NCBI RefSeq assembly: GCF_944390845.1
Contig: NZ_CALXRM010000010.1
Span: 1-64,000 of the forward strand
Direction of reading: 5' to 3'
Origin: an uncultured Brachyspira sp.
GTDB lineage: Bacteria; Spirochaetota; Brachyspiria; Brachyspirales; Brachyspiraceae
Length of the DNA: 64,000 nucleotides
The notes below the pieces were generated by a model. That model saw only the letters and a program-made list of their open reading frames with translations. It had not been told where the DNA came from and did not search any database. Below, piece after piece: positions 5,629 through 47,954 of the stretch; position 1 is the first letter of the stretch; every line of letters starts with the position of its first letter. The translations under genes and the position numbers were made by a program.

Positions 5629-5904
5629 GATATACTGAAAATTTTTAATTTTTTATATTTTGTAAATGTATTATCAACTTTAAAGTTTTTATCATTCGGA
5701 TACGCTACGCGAAAAACGCAATTGTTAAACTTTATATTTTAAGAATATGTATTAAATATTGTATAATCCCCCAGTTTTGGTTAAAAATGCAGTTCTTTTG
5801 CTTCTTTTATACCAATAAAAGAAGTAGGGGTGTGGGGGCAAAGCCACCACAAACAAAAAACTTAAAAAATACTTTTTGGAAAATTTAAAAATTTTCAGTA
5901 TATC
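5629..5904. mobile_element. Complete MITE-like element with perfect 20-bp terminal repeats
   Basis: The left end GATATACTGAAAATTTTTAA (5629-5648) is the exact reverse complement of the right end (5885-5904). The 276-bp interior holds fragments of the GC-rich modules and the AGGGGTGTGGGGGCAAAGCC core but no plausible protein. It lies between the sulfatase promoter and the SorC-type regulator, and its edge overlaps the regulator's TGA stop (5903-5905). No transposase is encoded, so any movement would depend on an enzyme supplied elsewhere. Confidence 0.82.
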
Positions 5905-6951: not shown

Positions 6952-7278
6952 ATATGTACTAAAAATTTTTAATTTTGTCAGCTGATGCACTTTATGTAAA
7001 TTTTATCTACTTTTTTGACATACAAAAAAGTAGCTATATCCTCGACAGGCTCGGATACGCTTCGCGAAAATGCAACTGTTAGAACTTTATATTAAAAACA
7101 TTCCTATTAAATATAGGATATACCCTAAAAATGCAGTCTTTCGCGAAGCGTATCTAAGTTTATCGAGGATATAGGTTCTTTGTGCCAACAAAAGAACTGG
7201 GGGTGTGGGGGCAAAGCCACCACAAACAATAAAATTGAAAAAACTAAAATTGACAAAATATAATTGTTTAGGGATATA
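6952..7278. mobile_element. Dispersed MITE-like element carrying inverted copies of a GC-rich module
   Basis: The left end ACTAAAAATTTTTAATTTTG resembles the TACTGAAAATTTTTAA terminus, and the right end is TTGACAAAATATAATTGTTT followed by AGGGATATAT. Inside, one module (ATCCTCGACAGGCTCGGATA, continuing CGCTTCGCGAAA) occurs at about 7038-7068 and again in inverse orientation at about 7138-7173, so the element could fold on itself. It also has the GGGTGTGGGGGCAAAGCC core at about 7201-7218. No coding frame. Confidence 0.75.
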
Positions 7279-7394: not shown

Positions 7395-8414
7395 TCATGA
7401 TTTTATCAAAACTTTACCGTCATTAAGATATAATTTCTTTGTAAATACATCATTAATATTTTCAAGTTCTACAATGTCAGTGATAATCTCTGATACATCT
7501 ACTATATTTCTAGCTAGTAAATTAACTGCTCTTTCAAAAGCATAAGGATTAACAAAAGAAGTTTTTATAGTAATTTCTTTTTGGAATAATTCAAAAGGTT
7601 TTATTTTTAATTCATCATCTGGACCAGTTAATCCAAATAACATTACTGTGGCACCTTTTCCTGCATACTTAATAGAATATTCTGCTGTTTGTATTTTACC
7701 TGCACAATCTATAACTTTATCGATATTAAATATATTATTTTCTTTTAATATATTTTCTGTATTATCATTGATTGGATCTATTACAATATTAGCACCATAT
7801 TTTTTTGCTCTTTCTCTTCTTTTCTCAACAGGTTCAACTGCTATTATATTAACAGCTCCGCTATATTTTAAAAGCTGAATCATAATAAGACCAATATTTC
7901 CTGTTCCAACTACCATAACAGTATCGCCTTGTTTTATATCCATCAAATCAATACCATGCAAACAGCATGATATAGGTTCTGTCATAGCGGCACTTTCATA
8001 AGAAACATTATCAGGTACTTTAAAAACTAAATTTTCTTTAACTGTAGCATACTCAGCAAATCCTCCGTCTAAAGAAACACCTACAGCAGTCATACTATCA
8101 CATAAATGTTTTTTGGCATTATTACAATGATAACAGTTATTACAATAATCATTAGGATCAATTGCAACTTTATCTCCTACTTTTACTTTAGTAACTTTGC
8201 TTCCTATTTTTTCAACACAGCCGGAAAATTCATGTCCTAATATTCTTGGAGGATTAACATCAGTGGAACCTTTTGCCCCCTCATATATATGAACATCTGT
8301 ACCGCAAACTCCGCAGTATTTAACTTTAACTAAAACCTCATCTTCTTTAGGTTCTTTTATATTTACATCTTCTATTAGTATTTTGTGCTTTTCATAAAAT
8401 ATTGCAGCTTTCAT
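7395..8414 (-). CDS. Zinc-dependent medium-chain alcohol/polyol dehydrogenase
   Basis: The 339-residue protein is a GroES-like plus Rossmann-fold dehydrogenase of the sorbitol/threonine/butanediol dehydrogenase type. Near the N-terminus it has the catalytic zinc Cys in CGVCGTD, then GHEFSG. The structural zinc site follows with four Cys in DYCNNCYHCNNAKKHLC. The NAD-binding turn is VMVVGTGNIGL, and EP two strands later favours NAD over NADP. The exact substrate is not decidable. A clean AGGAGA ribosome site precedes the ATG, and chorismate synthase lies 55 bases upstream on the same strand, so the two may be cotranscribed. Confidence 0.9.
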   Translation of the reverse strand: MKAAIFYEKHKILIEDVNIKEPKEDEVLVKVKYCGVCGTDVHIYEGAKGSTDVNPPRILGHEFSGCVEKIGSKVTKVKVGDKVAIDPNDYCNNCYHCNNAKKHLCDSMTAVGVSLDGGFAEYATVKENLVFKVPDNVSYESAAMTEPISCCLHGIDLMDIKQGDTVMVVGTGNIGLIMIQLLKYSGAVNIIAVEPVEKRRERAKKYGANIVIDPINDNTENILKENNIFNIDKVIDCAGKIQTAEYSIKYAGKGATVMLFGLTGPDDELKIKPFELFQKEITIKTSFVNPYAFERAVNLLARNIVDVSEIITDIVELENINDVFTKKLYLNDGKVLIKS

Positions 8415-12438: not shown

Positions 12439-13455
12439 TTAATCATCTAAAAAATAATTAGAATCTATAAAAATTCTTCTATACCACAATTGCCTTTTAG
12501 CTTTTATATTTTGTATTCTATCTCTAAATTGTAGCACAATACTATAATCTGCTGTATCATATAAACTATCAATTTTATACAAAATATTATCCAATTCTTC
12601 AAATTTTTCAATATAATATATTCTGATCTTCATTCCCTTTCTAAGTTGAAATTTTATAGAATTAATAATATCTTCAGCCTCATTTATTAAGTTATTAATT
12701 TCATAGATATCATTATCATATCTATTTCTTTCTATTAACATATTTTCAGCGTATATATATTTTGGATATTCTTGGTTATTAGTTTCTTCTTCATTATCTT
12801 CATTATTTTCATCTTTATTATTGCATTTATATAATATTAATTTTCCTTTTTGTATAAATTCCCATTCAGTTCTTAATAATTCATTAACATCATCTTTATT
12901 ATCATTTAAAAAGTCACCATCTTTATCGTAAATATATAAAGTTGCATTTTCTAATTTCTTATAATACAAAAGAGACTCCCACATTAAAGAATCATAATGA
13001 GAATGTTTTTTGTTTCCTTCTTTTTTTCTATATGGAGCACGTTCAGAATTAACTCTATTTTCTGCACCAACAAAATTCTCAGCAGAAAATGGTATTATTT
13101 CCTGTTTTCCTAAAAAATCAAATATTTCTTTTACTATATTCTTTCTATTATTTATTAGTTCATTGTATAATTTATTAGCACCTTCTTTTAACTCTTTTGC
13201 CATATTTTTTAAATTATCTGGATATGAATTTTCTTCTCTATATAATCTAGATAATTCTGATAATGCCTTTTCAAAATCATTTGTTCTGTTATAATTATCA
13301 GCAATATGCGATTGTAATTCATGCAATTGTACACTAGGAATTACAATATTATGTTTTTTTGATATTTTTTCTAATTTATTTAATAAAGTAGATTTTTTTT
13401 CATTAAAATAAATATTAGTATCTATAAATATATAATCTTTTTTATTATTAGGCAT
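12439..13455 (-). CDS. PIN-domain protein (probable endoribonuclease)
   Basis: The protein (about 338 residues) opens with a PIN domain: IFIDTNIYF gives the first acidic residue, VIPSVQLHEL the second, and ENATLYIYDKDGDFLNDNKD the later acidic cluster. PIN proteins are metal-dependent RNases, often toxins, but this one is much longer than a VapC toxin and has no visible antitoxin next to it. The acidic stretch NNKDENNEDNEEETNN separates the PIN part from a C-terminal helical half of unknown function. I chose the ATG at 13455, which has GGAG seven bases upstream, over the one four codons earlier. Confidence 0.7.
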   Translation of the reverse strand: MPNNKKDYIFIDTNIYFNEKKSTLLNKLEKISKKHNIVIPSVQLHELQSHIADNYNRTNDFEKALSELSRLYREENSYPDNLKNMAKELKEGANKLYNELINNRKNIVKEIFDFLGKQEIIPFSAENFVGAENRVNSERAPYRKKEGNKKHSHYDSLMWESLLYYKKLENATLYIYDKDGDFLNDNKDDVNELLRTEWEFIQKGKLILYKCNNKDENNEDNEEETNNQEYPKYIYAENMLIERNRYDNDIYEINNLINEAEDIINSIKFQLRKGMKIRIYYIEKFEELDNILYKIDSLYDTADYSIVLQFRDRIQNIKAKRQLWYRRIFIDSNYFLDD

Positions 13456-15825: not shown

Positions 15826-17655
15826 TTATTTTATAATATTAAAGAACTTTATACTTTCTTCTAATGACCTAGCCTTATCAACTAAACTCTTTGATATCTC
15901 ATTTGAATTTTCAGCTAATGCTGCATTCTGTGTAGTAGCATTTTCCATATTATTAACTTCTACACTTATTTGATTTGTACCCGATTCTTGTTCCAAAGCA
16001 TTTGATGTAATAGTTTCCATCAATCTTGAAGTTTCTAATACTTTGCTTTGAAGATCAACAAATATTTCCTGAGATTGCTTAGCAGTTTGAGTTGCTGTAT
16101 CTATTTTTTGAGAAGTATTATCTACTAATGTTGTTATGTCCTGAACAGAAGCCTGAGTAGTTTGAGCAAGATTTCTTACCTCAGAAGCTACTACAGCAAA
16201 ACCTCTGCCTTGATCTCCAGCACGTGCAGCCTCTACTGATGCATTAAGAGCAAGTATATTTGTTTGGAAAGCAATGTCTTCTATTATTTTTGTAATGTCT
16301 TTTATCTTCTCACTAGCTTGATAAACTTCTTCTATGTTTGAAGCTGTTTGAGATATTATATTTGCAGCACTTTCAATATACTTCATAGATTCAGACATCA
16401 TATCTTTACCTTGTATGGAATGTTCAGCTGAAATTTTAATATTTGAAACCATCTCCTCAATACTTGCTGCAGTTTCTTCCAAACTAGATGATTGAGAATC
16501 TGTTCTCATAGATAATTCCCCGCTGCTTTCCATCATACTTTGTGCAGCTGTCATTATTTCTCTAGAAGCATCATTTACATTAGAAACTACTTCTGCCAAT
16601 CTATTGCTCATAGTGTCAAAAACTTTTTCTAATTGACCAAATTCATCTTTTCCATAATTAAGCTTATTGGTTATATTAATATTTCCTTCTGCTATACTTG
16701 CTGCATGCATCATTAAATCTTTAAGAGGATGAGTAACTTTTTTAATGTAAAGGAAAGCAAATATATTAATGAATATAATAGATAAAATACATATAATAAT
16801 AGATATTATAATAGAGTTATTATTATCCCTATAAATTATTTTATCGTCCATAGCCATAATTAAATACCAAGGTAAATTATCTATTCTGCTGTAAACTGCA
16901 GTTCTAGGATCATGACTTACAGAAGATATATAATTCATAACACCAGCTTTCAATCCTTTATCTATTATTGAAGTATATGCTTCATTAGCCTCTGTGTTAA
17001 TTTCGTTTTTTGTATCTAAGACAATAATATTATTATCATCAACAGCAAATATTCTAGTTCTTTCAGGCAGTTTTAATTCCTGAAGCTTCATTGACAATTC
17101 TTCCCAATCCATAATCATGTATATATTTCCAACATGCTGACCATTATATTTAACTCCTGCAATCATAGCCAATGACCATTTTTTATCTGCACTTGACTTT
17201 TGTACACTATCATCAAAAGAAGCTTCATTATTGTTTTCTCTTAATATGTTTAAAATATTAGTTCTTACAGTAGTAATATTTTCTCCGAGTTTTACTTTAT
17301 TAACATTATCTAAAATAATACCATTTGTATCTGTTAAACCTATATCAAGTACATAATTATTTATAGCCTCAAATTCTGAAAGTGTAGTATGTACATCTAT
17401 ATTTCTATTTAAAAAATATTCTCTTATTATTGGGGTAACGGCATAAGTTTTTATTAAATTTCTGCTGTCATCAAGCCAAACATCTAACATATCTTTATAA
17501 CCGCTAATTGTATTTTCAAAACCTGATAATGTGGTATTTTTAGTGATTCTGAATGATCTGTAGGATAATAAAGCCACAATCAGGACCAAAAAAATTGTAC
17601 TTAAAATGCTTATCGCTATAGGCATTTTTACTCTTATTGAATGTATTTTTCTCAT
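15826..17655 (-). CDS. Methyl-accepting chemotaxis protein
   Basis: This 609-residue transmembrane chemoreceptor has a first membrane helix near residues 11-33, a periplasmic Cache-like sensor to about 275, a second helix near 280-305 ([20 protein letters not shown]), a HAMP region (about 306-360) and a long coiled-coil signalling domain. The tip of the hairpin reads [20 protein letters not shown] followed by [20 protein letters not shown], the conserved CheA/CheW contact. No C-terminal NWETF-like pentapeptide is present. The ligand cannot be told. It is a single gene with its own terminator. Confidence 0.93.
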
Positions 17656-24409: not shown

Positions 24410-24526
24410 ATAAAACTCCTTTAATAAAAATTTAGTACGACGGTGGACTATTATATACATGTTTGCTTCTTTGTCAATAGAGAAAGTACGATTTTTTACT
24501 TTTTATTGTTTAGGAGTAATAGATAT

Positions 24527-25550
24527 TGCACACTTTTTAGTTTAAAAAAAGCAGGTATTCCTTATAATTAAATTAGCAAAAAAATAAAAAGGAATACCTA
24601 TGAAACAATATAATACAAATCAGAAAAAAAAGATAGTATTAACTATTAATAAAGCTAAAAATAAAAAAGTTCAGGCTCTCAAATTTAATATTAGCATAAG
24701 AACTTATTACTATTGGAAGAAGAAATTATAAGAAACAGGAACTGTAGAAAATAAGAGTAGGAAACCCAAAAATAGTCCTAATAAGCTTAAAAAGAAAAAG
24801 ATTATTAATAAAGTAATAGAAGTTCGTAAGAAATACAAATATGGTAAGCTAAAAATTAAAAAACTCTTAGAAAAAGAAAATATTACAATAGGCACTACAG
24901 CTATTGAAACAATCTTCAAAGATTATAATCTCTATCAAAATAGAAAGAAGAAAATAAGAAAAAAACATAAAGGAAAGCATGCTATTTATATAAAAGAAGC
25001 GGGGGAAAAGGTACAAACAGATGTAAAATATGCTTTCTTTGGGGAAATACGTTATTATCAATTTACTGCTGTAGATATAGCAACAAGAATGAGCTTTAGA
25101 TATTTATATGCTGAAAAAACACCAGAAAGTACTATTGATTTTACCAAACGTATGCTGAAATATTTTTCTTTTCGTGTTCATTGTATTCAAACAGACAATG
25201 GCACAGAATTCACCTATCGTAAGCATTTTTTTGAAACAGAGCATCCGCTAGATAATTTTTGTAAAAATAAACACATCAAAAGAGTTTATAGCCCAGTTGC
25301 TAGTCCTTGGTATTGCCGCAGGCACGCAGAGCGATGGAGTAGTAGAAAGTACACATAACCGAGACCAAAAAGAATTTTATGACTTTTGTACAAAAGAATT
25401 AACTTTAGAGAAAGCTAATCTAAAACTAAGGAAATATAATAATTTTTGGAATCATAAAAGAATACATTCTAATGCAAAATTATGATACGCCTATGATATA
25501 CTTTAAGAAATTAAGGAATTCCTAAATGCAATATCTATAGCACCTGTGCA
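24527..25550 (+). mobile_element. IS481-like insertion sequence, inactive
   Basis: The ends are TGCACA (24527-24532) and TGTGCA (25545-25550), about 1.02 kb apart, enclosing one damaged DDE transposase gene. An ATAGATATTGCA word also occurs inverted near both ends. The family call rests on the rve integrase core and single-gene layout. A diverged 3' piece of a related copy lies at 26400-26513. Confidence 0.75.
24600..25485 (+). pseudogene. DDE integrase-core transposase with a nonsense codon and a short insertion
   Basis: The ATG at 24600 opens MKQYNTNQKKKIVLTINKAK with an N-terminal helix-turn-helix, but codon 44 is TAA (24729-24731). The same frame continues with the integrase core: first Asp in VQTDVKYAFFGE, second in IQTDNGTEFTYR. 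At about 25311 the frame is lost in the sequence ATTGCCGCAGGCACGCAGAG. It resumes one frame later as DGVVESTHNRDQKEFYDF, which carries the catalytic Glu, and ends at 25485. Removing 19 or 22 bases restores SPW(S)DGVVES. The inserted bases match a module of the dispersed MITE-like elements. Confidence 0.82.
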
Positions 25551-25712
25551 ATAATTTTTATTTTTTAGTAAAGATATATTACTATTTTCAATAAAACTTT
25601 TAAATTTACTAATATTATCCGTTTCATAAAAATTCATTTTTATGAAAATAAATTTGACTTCTAATATAAAAATATTATATTTAAGACATATAAAAAATAA
25701 AGGAAATAAAAA

Positions 25713-26513: not shown

Positions 26514-26850
26514 TATACTGAAAATGTTTAAGTTTGTCAATTCTTTTATTCAACTTTTTCCCGCCGCATACGCTCTGCGGACTTCGTCAAAGTTGCAAAA
26601 AGTGCAAATATAAAATTAGTGCTAAATCATACTAAAATTGTATTACATGTAAAATAATTTATTACATTTAAGTTTAAATATAGCCTTTCGCGAAGCGTAT
26701 CTGAGCTTGTCGAGGATATAGCTTCTTTGTGGCAATACTTACAGTACTTCCTTCAGTCGCAAAAGAACTGGGGGTGTGGGGGCTAGTCCCCACAAATAAT
26801 AAAAATAATAAAATAATTTTTGACAAAATATATTTGTTTCAGTATATATT
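26512..26850. mobile_element. MITE-like element inserted in an IS remnant
   Basis: It starts TATATACTGAAAATGTTTAA and ends TTTGTTTCAGTATATAT, giving imperfect inverted ends. Its interior reads, on the minus strand, like the elements at 2848 and 47694, but carries extra modules: one around TTTCGCGAAGCGTATC (about 26687), a GACTTCGTC/GCGGACTT module near 26566-26590, and TACTTCCTTCAGTCGC. It has no coding frame. Confidence 0.75.
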
Positions 26851-42768: not shown

Positions 42769-44730
42769 ATGGAAAACAGAAAATCTTTAGGTCTTCAATT
42801 TAAAATCTTCGTATTGTTAGCAGTATCAGTAATAATAATGTTTGTAACTGTTATTTCTTATATGGTTACACATAATATCGAAAACTCTAAAAAAGAAGGT
42901 TTTGCTTCAACAGAATATATGGTCACAACTTATGCTAAAGATATAGAAAAAGAAATGCTTTCATATATATCTATGCTTGATACTATAGCATTATCATTAA
43001 AAAACGATATAGTAAGCGGAACTATCACAAGAGAATCACATACTCGTATTCTAGGGGAAATGCTTAACAATAATGATAATTTATTTAGTATATATGAGAT
43101 GTGGGAAAAAAATGCATTTGACGGCAGAGATGATGAATTTATAGATACTGATTATGGTTCTGAAGTTGATGGAAGATACGGTCCTTCTTTCTTTTATGAT
43201 GAAAATGAAGTTACTTATGATAAAGTTTATCAAGAAGAATTTGACGCCAATCCTAATTACTATACTATACCTAAAAATTCAAAACAATTATATATAAGCG
43301 ATGTTGAAAAAGATGATACTTATACAGGAGCTGATACTGTACTTACTGTAAGCATTGTTGAGCCTATACTAGATGATTCCGGAAAGTTTTTAGGTATGGT
43401 TGGAGTGGATTTTTCTGCTGATAATTTGGTAAAAATAGTATCAGCAATCTCAACTAATAATGGTATGAGCGGTTATTTAATTAATCAATACGGTGTAATA
43501 TTGGCTGCTACAAATACTCAAATTATAGGAGAAGAAATTTCAACTATATATAACAATGCAAATGATATAATAAGCAGTATAAAAAATAATACTAAATTAT
43601 CATTTAGAAACAAAATAAATAATCATAAAGTTTTCAATATTGTAGTGCCATTAACTTCATTGAAAGATGATAATAATGCTATAGGCTTATTAGTAAATAT
43701 ACCAGAAATTGTTATAGTAAGAGAAAATATAAAAAATGCTGTTGTAACTTCTATATTGGCTATTATTGTTCTTATAGTATTTTTAGTACTTATAAATATA
43801 TTAATCAAGAAAAGCTTAATAGACCCAATACTTAAAGTTTTGCATGTATCAGAAAAATTGAGCAATGGGGATTTAAGTTCCTATGAAAATAAATCATTGA
43901 GTACAAGAAAAGATGAAATAGGAATGATATTTAATTCTATATTAAATACTCAAAATATATTATCAAATATAATAAAGCAAATATTAAACTCTACAAATGC
44001 TATGGAAAATGCCAGTAAAAATGTAAGTGCCGGAAGTGCGGATTTATCTAATAGAACAGAAAAACAGAGAGATGATCTAAAAATGATAACTGAAACTATG
44101 GCAAACACTTTAGAAGTAATAGATAAAACAACAAATGATATAGCAGTTACAAATGATAAAATACAAATACTTACAGATTCAAGCGAACATTGTTATAATT
44201 TATCAAAAGAATCTATGGTTCTTATGGAAGATATAACAAAGGCTGCTTCAGAAATAGCCAGCATAACAAAAATAATAGATGATATAGCAATGCAGACAAA
44301 TATACTTGCTCTTAATGCTTCAGTAGAGGCCGCACGTGCCGGAGATCAAGGAAAAGGATTTGCTGTAGTAGCTGCTGAAGTTAGAAATCTAGCTCAAACT
44401 TCTCAAGCATCAGTAAAAAGCATTACAACTATAGTAAATAACAGTTTAGAAAAGATAAACGAAGGAAACAATAAAATAAAAGAAACTATGGACGCTTTGG
44501 AAGATATTACTAATAAAGCTAAAGAAAGCAGTTATATAGTAAGTCAGATGGTAGAATCTTCTACAGAACAGGACGCTTCAGCAAGAGAAGTTCAAAGTGC
44601 TGTAAACAGTGTGGATATAAGTGCCGAACAGAATACTGATTTAGTAAGAACAAATGCAGATATAGTTGTTGATATGGAAAAAGAAACTCAAAAACTCGCG
44701 GATTTGATGAAATTCTTTAGCTTCAAATAA
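42769..44730 (+). CDS. Methyl-accepting chemotaxis protein with dCache-type sensor
   Basis: The protein (about 653 residues) has membrane helices near residues 15-35 and 325-350, a periplasmic dCache-like domain between them ([20 protein letters not shown] followed by GMVGVDFS), a HAMP region and a signalling coiled coil. The tip is [20 protein letters not shown] followed by [20 protein letters not shown]. It shares the tip with the receptor at 15826 but has a different sensor. I prefer the ATG at 42769, with the GGGCGGGG site upstream, over the GTG at 42757. No CheR-binding tail is seen. Confidence 0.93.
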
Positions 44731-47329: not shown

Positions 47330-47698
47330 TATCTACCTAAACAACTATATTTTGTCAATTTTAGTTTTTTCAATTTTATTGTTTGTGGTGGCTTTGCCCA
47401 CCGCTCTGCGTGCCGTAGGCAAGGTACCTTTCGGTATTGGGATAAGGCATAGCCTGCCTTCGGCGAGAACCTATATCCTCGACAGGCTCGGATACGCTTC
47501 GCGAAAGACTGCATTTTTAGGGTATATCCTATATTTAATAGGAAAGTTTTTAATATAAAGTTCTAGCAATTGAGTTTTTCGCATAGCGTATCCGAAGGAT
47601 AAAAACTTTGATGAAGTCCGCAGAGTGTGTGCGGCAAAAAAGTTGATAATATTACATAATGTGCAGTAGTCGGCAAAATGAAATCGTTTCAGTATATA
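47330..47698. mobile_element. MITE-like element with several GC-rich modules
   Basis: It runs from TATCTACCTAAACAACTATA to CGTTTCAGTATATA. Inside are a CTCTGCGTGCCGTAGGCAA module (47404-47422), TCCTCGACAGGCTCGGATAC followed by GCTTCGCGAAA (about 47477-47507), and GATGAAGTCCGCAGAG (about 47610). A frame on the minus strand (47263-47514) is produced by these modules and is not treated as a gene. The CTCTGCGTGCC module is the reverse complement of the insertion in the IS transposase at 25313-25337. Confidence 0.75.
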
Positions 47699-47954
47699 CC
47701 TAAACAACTATATTTTGTCAAAAATAATTTTTTTAAATTTTAAATATCTGCAGGGCTTTGCCCCGCACCCCACTTCTTTTGGTGACCCAAAGAAGCAAAA
47801 GGACTATAATTTAGCTTAAATTAATAACCTATCTTACATGTAAAACAATTTTAGTATGATTTAGTACTAATTATGTAATTGCACTTTTTGCAACTTTTTG
47901 CGGCGGGAAAAAGTTGAATAAAAAAATGACAAACTTAAAAATTTTTAGTATATA
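47694..47954. mobile_element. MITE-like element adjoining the previous copy
   Basis: It begins TATACCTAAACAACTATATT, shares 5 bases with the end of the preceding copy, and ends ACTTAAAAATTTTTAGTATA. It contains CAGGGCTTTGCCCCGCACCC and the TTACATGTAAAACAATTTTA stretch and has the least interior insertion of the long copies, so it may approximate the ancestral form. Confidence 0.75.

Follow-up and report, generated by a model that had tools for sequence, protein, structure and literature searches.

The question raised by the locus at 6952-7278 is whether short GC-rich blocks within a larger repeat move as units of their own or are what deletions have left of one ancestral element. The window, i.e. 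the whole 64,000-nucleotide stretch analysed here, belongs to a genome of 3.43 Mb in 133 contigs (G000). The nearest named relatives of one of its proteins include B. innocens, B. hampsonii and B. catarrhinii, which places it in Brachyspira; over 6.2 kb the B. innocens and B. hampsonii loci match the genus genomes G008 and G006, respectively, without a difference. The locus is one member of a large AT-rich Brachyspira repeat family with common ends. Used as a query it gave 120 matches in its own genome, and 81 distinct elements with inward-facing ends were extracted from the sampled G000 loci. The earlier note had stated that copies share their ends while differing in the combination of blocks, and the 81 elements bear this out. 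Ends of the types T1, T2 and T3 pair inward in them; the family has the terminal inverted repeats (imperfect in this case) and the many copies of a MITE. Empty sites in relatives were found as well, with filled and empty states in the pairs L492/L271, L498/L394, L290/L446 and L310/L456.

The element ends are TA-rich and would suit a TA target-site duplication, but the empty sites are too strongly diverged to define it. At 25 distinct tandem junctions among the G000 loci the adjoining elements have a single GTATATAC in common, as expected if a later copy went into the TA-rich end of an older one. The repeats may be described as non-autonomous elements of ~220-420 bp with TA-rich insertion sites, each of which would form a long quasi-palindrome bearing side hairpins. 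No autonomous partner was seen as end pairs 900-4000 bp apart enclosing an ORF among the examined loci. A search of 26 genomes of the genus for the IS630-type transposase domain PF13358 gave no recognisable partner, the single match being a broken fragment in one genome. The E003/E004 pair is missing from the orthologous intergenic regions of the 47.3-47.95 kb locus in five relatives, and the orthologue of the gene at 7395-8414, which adjoins the element at 6952-7278, showed no synteny in any of four relatives. At 47694-47697 of the window and at other G000 junctions, elements directly adjoin each other, the members often having different cores.

Starting at T1 (TACCTAAACAACTATATTTTGTCA), the order of parts in an element is an AT spacer, the GGGGCTTTGCCCC hairpin (slot S1), a CTTCTTT/AAAGAAG stem (S2, with S2b on its 3' side), S3, one of several AT-rich cores, S4, a second stem, e.g. 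CAACTTT/AAAGTTG (S5), a spacer and the opposite end. The slot names S1-S5 were coined in this analysis.

Table 1. Elements, slots and GC-rich modules located in the window.
Feature	Position	Strand	Remarks
Sister element E000	5633..5900	-	T2-like at both ends; one slot filled with the short A' module TATCATTCGGATACGCTACGCGAA
Element E001 (the locus under study)	6952..7278	-	T1 right, ~7250-7278; T2 left, ~6952-6981; ends pair at 6957-7274
Stem of slot S5, empty in E001, CTACTTTTTT...AAAAAAGTAG	7007..7033	-	inverted repeat, fold
A-module in slot S4 of E001	7034..7069	+	
Core type 1 of E001, separating its A-modules in S4 and S3	7070..7138	-	
A-module variant in slot S3 of E001	7139..7181	-	inverted relative to first A; arms 84% complementary
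Stem of slot S2, empty in E001, GTTCTTTTGTTGGCACAAAGAAC	7174..7199	-	sequence, fold
Hairpin of slot S1, empty in E001, GTGGCTTTGCCCCCAC	7203..7222	-	sequence, fold
C-type module (CGCTCTGCG + TGCCTGCGGCA)	25314..25333	-	in IS481-family transposase gene remnant; no surrounding element
Sister element E002, core 2	26516..26844	-	A in S3, E-type module in S2, D in S5
Sister element E003, core 1	47334..47694	+	
C-module [CGCTCTGCG][TGCCGTAGGCA] in E003	47402..47421	+	
F-module [GGCATAGCC][TGCCTTCGGCG] in E003	47446..47465	+	
A-module in E003	47471..47506	+	identical to 7034-7069
Short A' module in slot S4 of E003	47580..47601	-	
D-module in slot S5 of E003	47610..47635	+	
Element E004, in tandem with E003	47697..47950	+	module-free

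Other repeats were observed beside this family. A second type of element, whose ends bear GTTTTGAAACAAGTC inverted repeats, contains S1/S2-like parts as well (flanks of L319/L379; L126, ~2690-2870), and the region between its ends is inverted in L319 relative to L379. Another core, with GTGCGG/CCGCAC stretches and CGTATAG, is common to L264, L279, L267 and L282/L372 and was not noticed in the window. Outside the element family the window holds a 196-bp inverted repeat, 81% identical, at 16102-16297 and 44262-44457.

The slots can be filled with modules. What had been described as GC-rich blocks are separate units as claimed; however, they are not arbitrary stretches of GC but paired mini-hairpins with stems of 3-5 bp and loops mostly of 3-5 nt, mostly 16-35 nt overall, received by about six fixed slots of the element. 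The A-module reads [CGC GAA GCG][TATCC..GGATA], the C-module [CGC TCT GCG][TGCC GTA GGCA], the D-module [GAC GAA GTC][CGC AGA GCG] and the F-module [GGC ACA GCC][CGCC TAC GGCG]; E-type modules carry CC-GAA-GG and TACC-TTTC-GGTA hairpins. In the locus itself the claim of an inverted second copy of the 7038-7068 block proved right, the arms being 7027-7069 and 7139-7181, and the copy of the same form expected near 47477-47507 is identical over 36 of 36 bases. Two further blocks attributed to this family are absent from 6952-7278 itself but present in sister elements, namely GACGAAGTCCGC at 26571-26588 with a variant at ~47610, and GCACGCAGAG (complement CTCTGCGTGC) at ~47402-47421. Chance is excluded as the source of the blocks by 191 G000 matches to GGATACGCTTCGCGAA at up to 3 mismatches vs 7 for the reversed control and by 138 genome matches to GACGAAGTCCGCAGAGCG vs 0. 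At least 20 matches to A with up to 2 mismatches occur in 14 of 26 genomes of the genus and at least one in 25 of 26, some of these 25 having matches that look coding.

From the 81 elements 71 could be parsed and 56 scored at all five slots; the latter showed 22 slot combinations, with 7 copies wholly empty. Occupancy was partly correlated among S1, S2, S3 and S5 (S1-S5, p=0.0003); S4 varied independently of these. A [CGC TCT GCG] hairpin with a varying second hairpin was seen in S1, in S4 and within the E module of S2, i.e. in non-homologous slots. Modules occurred in both orientations at S1 and also nested in one another or in each other's loops. Even close copies differed: E004 is module-free, but its near-identical paralogue E079 (260 of 262 aligned bases) contains two, and 15 of 22 G000 paralogue pairs (at least 95% identity over at least 200 aligned bases; the pairs are not independent) differed in modules. 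At L019 (~300-430), an E module lies in a ~100-bp insert with a direct repeat of ~17 bp (ATTTTCTTCTCCTTAAA) at its flanks, near a short ORF.

The hairpins might instead be a functional, non-mobile RNA or DNA structure maintained by selection with compensatory changes. The fold of the 6952-7278 element as single-stranded DNA is strong (-60.4 kcal/mol, z = -10.2), as is that of 47330-47700 with E003 (z = -6.1). Stems covary too, GGC/GCC vs TAC/GTA in the first hairpin of the F class (31 distinct sequences) and at the middle pair only in the S5 class (14 distinct sequences). Yet an Rfam scan of the window returned one tRNA and no family for the repeats. Moreover, inversions, together with the presence or absence at single loci and the insertions into genes reported below, do not fit a conserved RNA, and we regard this explanation as quite unlikely.

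Elements and flanks were compared from four related genomes, namely G025, the MAG G022 and two with contigs of 3.04 Mb (G007) and 3.30 Mb (G009), using a subset of the end matches in G009, G022 and G025 and most of the listed places in G007; flanks outside the element were matched and the interval between them was compared. The 133 comparisons, which are not independent sites because one site can recur in several genome pairs, comprised 66 with different elements at one site, 31 partly similar, 27 the same and 9 filled vs empty or nearly empty. For G007 vs G009 (n=18) the respective numbers were 10, 5, 2 and 1. In L282/L372, L353/L366 and L354/L400, as in the 66 comparisons, the occupant is wholly different, as if the site had been retained and its occupant replaced.

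Where the same element was present, module-sized GC-rich gaps of one to four modules distinguished 19 of 28 comparisons, a set of the 27 rows classed as the same plus L284/L292 added by hand; this count and that of 7 of 12 comparisons with module differences that did not involve G022 were made by eye. L391/L470 are 98.5% identical, with two additional modules in G025 at S4 and S5. Three additional modules distinguish L393/L455 and L321/L457 (G009 and G025), L263/L291 differ by two and L284/L292 by three, and L330/L361 at three slots. In L328/L359 one slot differs and the left spacer is also swapped, while in L348/L484 two different modules alternate in one slot. On one backbone in three genomes, L393/L455/L537 carry 0, 3 and 4 modules; L394/L454/L498 hold two modules in G025 (L454) alone. 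Filled slots replace short T or A runs present in empty slots. Boundaries with duplicated bases, for which the earlier note had proposed to look, occur in some cases; there is no constant target-site duplication, and insertions duplicate ~2 nt, replace 1-3 nt or are clean. The modules come and go as units. Such differences in whole modules on orthologous backbones of ~95-99% identity support the view that the blocks behave as independent units within a larger repeat.

Short-read assemblers that mix repeat copies could in principle produce such patterns, and G022, a MAG of ~110 contigs, was the poorer partner in several comparisons. Yet module differences persisted in the comparisons without this genome, the long contigs of G007 and G009 hold different elements at 10 of 18 common sites, and the insertions in the ssb gene described below lie in non-repeated gene sequence. 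An assembly artefact is thus highly improbable.

With G007 as the outgroup (by identities), parsimony makes the L393 triple look like a loss in G022 and L454 like a gain in G025; both directions could be misled by exchange between species. The three-module loss at L393 would suit an ancestral element that had every module, with copies differing by deletion alone, and deletion derivatives do exist (E042, E059 and E075). This history is hard to reconcile with the T or A runs, which are replaced in filled slots and which simple deletion does not leave in empty ones, with the alternative modules in the slot of L348/L484 and with modules in an IS481 and an ssb gene. Neither does it account for the two modules of L454 in the face of none in L394 and L498, nor for nesting and inversion. 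The one uniform ancestor whose blocks never gained a new position, named in advance as what would overturn the idea of independent units, is contradicted by the alternative modules, the non-homologous slots, the inversion and the nesting. We consider a history of deletions only as hardly credible.

A more serious rival is that slot contents are swapped among dispersed copies by short or patchy gene conversion, the modules not being mobile themselves. It is possible because sequences adjacent to the slots are conserved in all copies. Gene conversion accounts for the exact boundaries, for T/A runs being restored in empty slots and for gain as well as loss. Recombination or replacement of elements must be frequent because 66 of 133 orthologous comparisons hold different elements, and this, like the partial correlation of slot occupancy, is in favour of it. 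So is the swapped left spacer of L328/L359. The same holds for the direction of change, since most loci that differ by more than one module changed in one direction throughout (exceptions, L520/L379 and L530/L468), a trend further weakened by the paralogue pair E052/E079.

At L393, two toggled slots are separated by an 85-nt backbone, for which four whole genomes were searched. Perfect matches were confined to the locus itself, in G022 and G025. The closest paralogue reached 95% in G022, and in G009 97% over 76 nt. In these four genomes the backbone is unique to its locus; thus modules changed at several slots and left the intervening sequence as it was, and one long conversion tract is rejected for L393/L455, for this locus only. 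At other loci there was mostly no paralogue within 2 edits of the inter-slot backbone among the sampled sequences, which like the 95% of the best G022 paralogue speaks against gene conversion as the sole process. In addition, gene conversion cannot invert modules at the same slot.

Modules outside the elements bear on the same issue. Among 450 double hairpins tested in the sampled loci, 427 were flanked on either side by element sequence, 21 on one side only and 2 not at all. One of these two is in the window, in an IS481-family transposase gene (Table 1), and the other in the ssb gene of G006 described below. The assignment rests on the N-terminal part matching NF033577 at 4e-29, which is below the model's whole-protein cut-off. 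The stretch 24480-25570 looks like the remnant of an IS481-family element with an early stop and a frameshift. The frame shifts at the module, one frame running up to SPVASPWY and another from DGVVESTH. A search for intact relatives of this copy gave no close match in phages, plasmids and viral contigs, and therefore the exact junction stays putative.

Prophage genes of B. hampsonii (G006) provided further cases. Its prophage-type ssb gene, an identity confirmed by SSB pieces in the gene, carries five inserts, four of them clear double hairpins and the fifth a shorter GC-rich piece. In an alignment the inserts are missing in five prophage relatives, the last of the four double hairpins having been judged by eye since the alignment breaks at a larger insert before it. 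Two of the ssb inserts follow TA or TG, with the dinucleotide repeated at the far side. In the 25.5-kb prophage-like contig 5 of 10 double hairpins lie outside elements; 16 stretches of 20 kb from G000, G009 and G007 had none outside, with three matches in one stretch, all in elements. Gene names other than ssb are putative and were assigned by reading. A putative prohead-protease-like gene of G006 has a 90-nt insert with a module in comparison with four relatives, and its frame stays open. This insert also has a duplicated stretch, i.e. other processes act in the B. hampsonii prophage. Modules vary among prophages in a putative connector gene, while a putative portal site in L634 (10141) showed no homology upstream. 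At the N-terminus of another prophage gene (L654, L658, L661 and L634, ~13213-13263) 21-nt in-frame hairpin pieces vary, giving VAEGVLSQ or GTEGMLSQ. Gene conversion among element copies cannot put modules into the IS481 gene or the prophage ssb gene. Thus we regard it as a tentative and, taken as the sole cause, unlikely explanation.

Taken together we favor the view, with a probability of about 0.6, that the modules are micro-mobile double hairpins like the GC clusters of yeast mitochondria, with gene conversion also moving them. Modules would be gained and lost singly, for the most part where an element has a hairpin tip or a T/A run and seldom at other places. New sites may receive copies of them, probably by template switching that hairpins assist or by some other process that recognises hairpins, and insertion would sometimes replace 1-3 nt and sometimes duplicate ~2. 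The covarying stems and the strong folds agree with this view as well. Recombination between element copies probably adds to the exchange. The earlier idea of blocks shuffled between copies is retained in that modules do shuffle, recombination between copies being just one possible route. Several observations count against free mobility. Nearly all modules are inside elements, a constant target-site duplication is missing, the genome search with PF13358 yielded no enzyme, and differences in the same direction at a locus speak against it because single independent insertions would not predict them. The duplicated stretch in the protease insert likewise points to other processes in that prophage.

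The modules called Eb point to a further possibility. At S2 and in ssb they occupy TA or TG sites, and in 38 of 42 strand-doubled rows the dinucleotide at the flank agrees with its repeat at the end and with the complementary pair that separates the hairpins; since the dinucleotides are only TA and TG (or CA), this may reflect two families rather than templating. Conceivably, mobile DNA of a novel kind that lacks fixed ends is at work, in which a process writes double-hairpin modules, several together, into selfish or dead DNA such as MITE-like elements, IS481 and prophage genes, using target bases as stems (Eb: N1N2-CC..GG-complement-CC..GG-N1N2), and also removes them cleanly in bursts. We hold this to be rather improbable.

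In the accessible parts of the Brachyspira literature outside subscription journals, including the genome papers PMC3532143, PMC3163572 and PMC2897892, no account of these repeats was found. Because orthologous loci show many such units precisely present or absent, gain, loss and target choice become measurable, and as fast-varying repeats they are candidate markers for strain typing. Several bacterial repeats are similar in part; the comparisons here are with the portions of the cited papers available to us. Correia/NEMIS, RUP and Rickettsia palindromic elements are MITE-like, several with TA targets or ends; Correia elements have forms with and without a 50-bp internal piece and the Rickettsia elements insert in genes, but micro-modules at multiple slots are not described in those portions (PMC2229807, PMC10969869). 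REPINs, or REP doublets, are likewise paired palindromes proposed as a mobile unit, yet they are RAYT-linked and free in extragenic space, whereas the Brachyspira modules are mostly within a larger element (PMC3116915). BOX of Streptococcus pneumoniae is a modular MITE-like repeat whose number of boxB units, which fold largely on their own, varies between strains at one site (PMC3049150). As described there, a single module kind stands in tandem between boxA and boxC, in contrast to the several kinds found here at about six slots, interchangeable, nested, invertible and also in genes. An assignment to BOX was rejected because the modules stand singly or nested at separate slots, not in tandem between two end units.

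The closest parallels come from organelles, where the mobility of tiny hairpins has so far mostly been argued; here it concerns a bacterial genus. Short palindromic repeats of Volvox organelles have loops of 3-5 nt and palindromes inserted in palindromes, but units of up to ~77-79 nt, and the available text describes no host repeat with conserved slots (PMC2670323). The RHE of sponge mtDNA are double hairpins as well, again in an organelle genome and, in the portion available, with no slot-bearing host repeat described (PMC2800124). The GC clusters of yeast mtDNA (GC42 family), with AG or ACT duplications at their flanks, are reported to turn over far faster than substitutions accumulate, and their palindromic units merge and shuffle (PMC4478555). 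As for not being tied to one host repeat, as GC clusters are not, only 2 of the 450 double hairpins in the sampled loci were outside elements, and more in the G006 prophage contig. Like GC clusters, the Brachyspira modules are short GC-rich hairpins in an AT-rich genome, polymorphic for presence and absence; unlike these, they occupy fixed slots within a transposable repeat of a bacterium and lack a constant duplication (PMC4478555).
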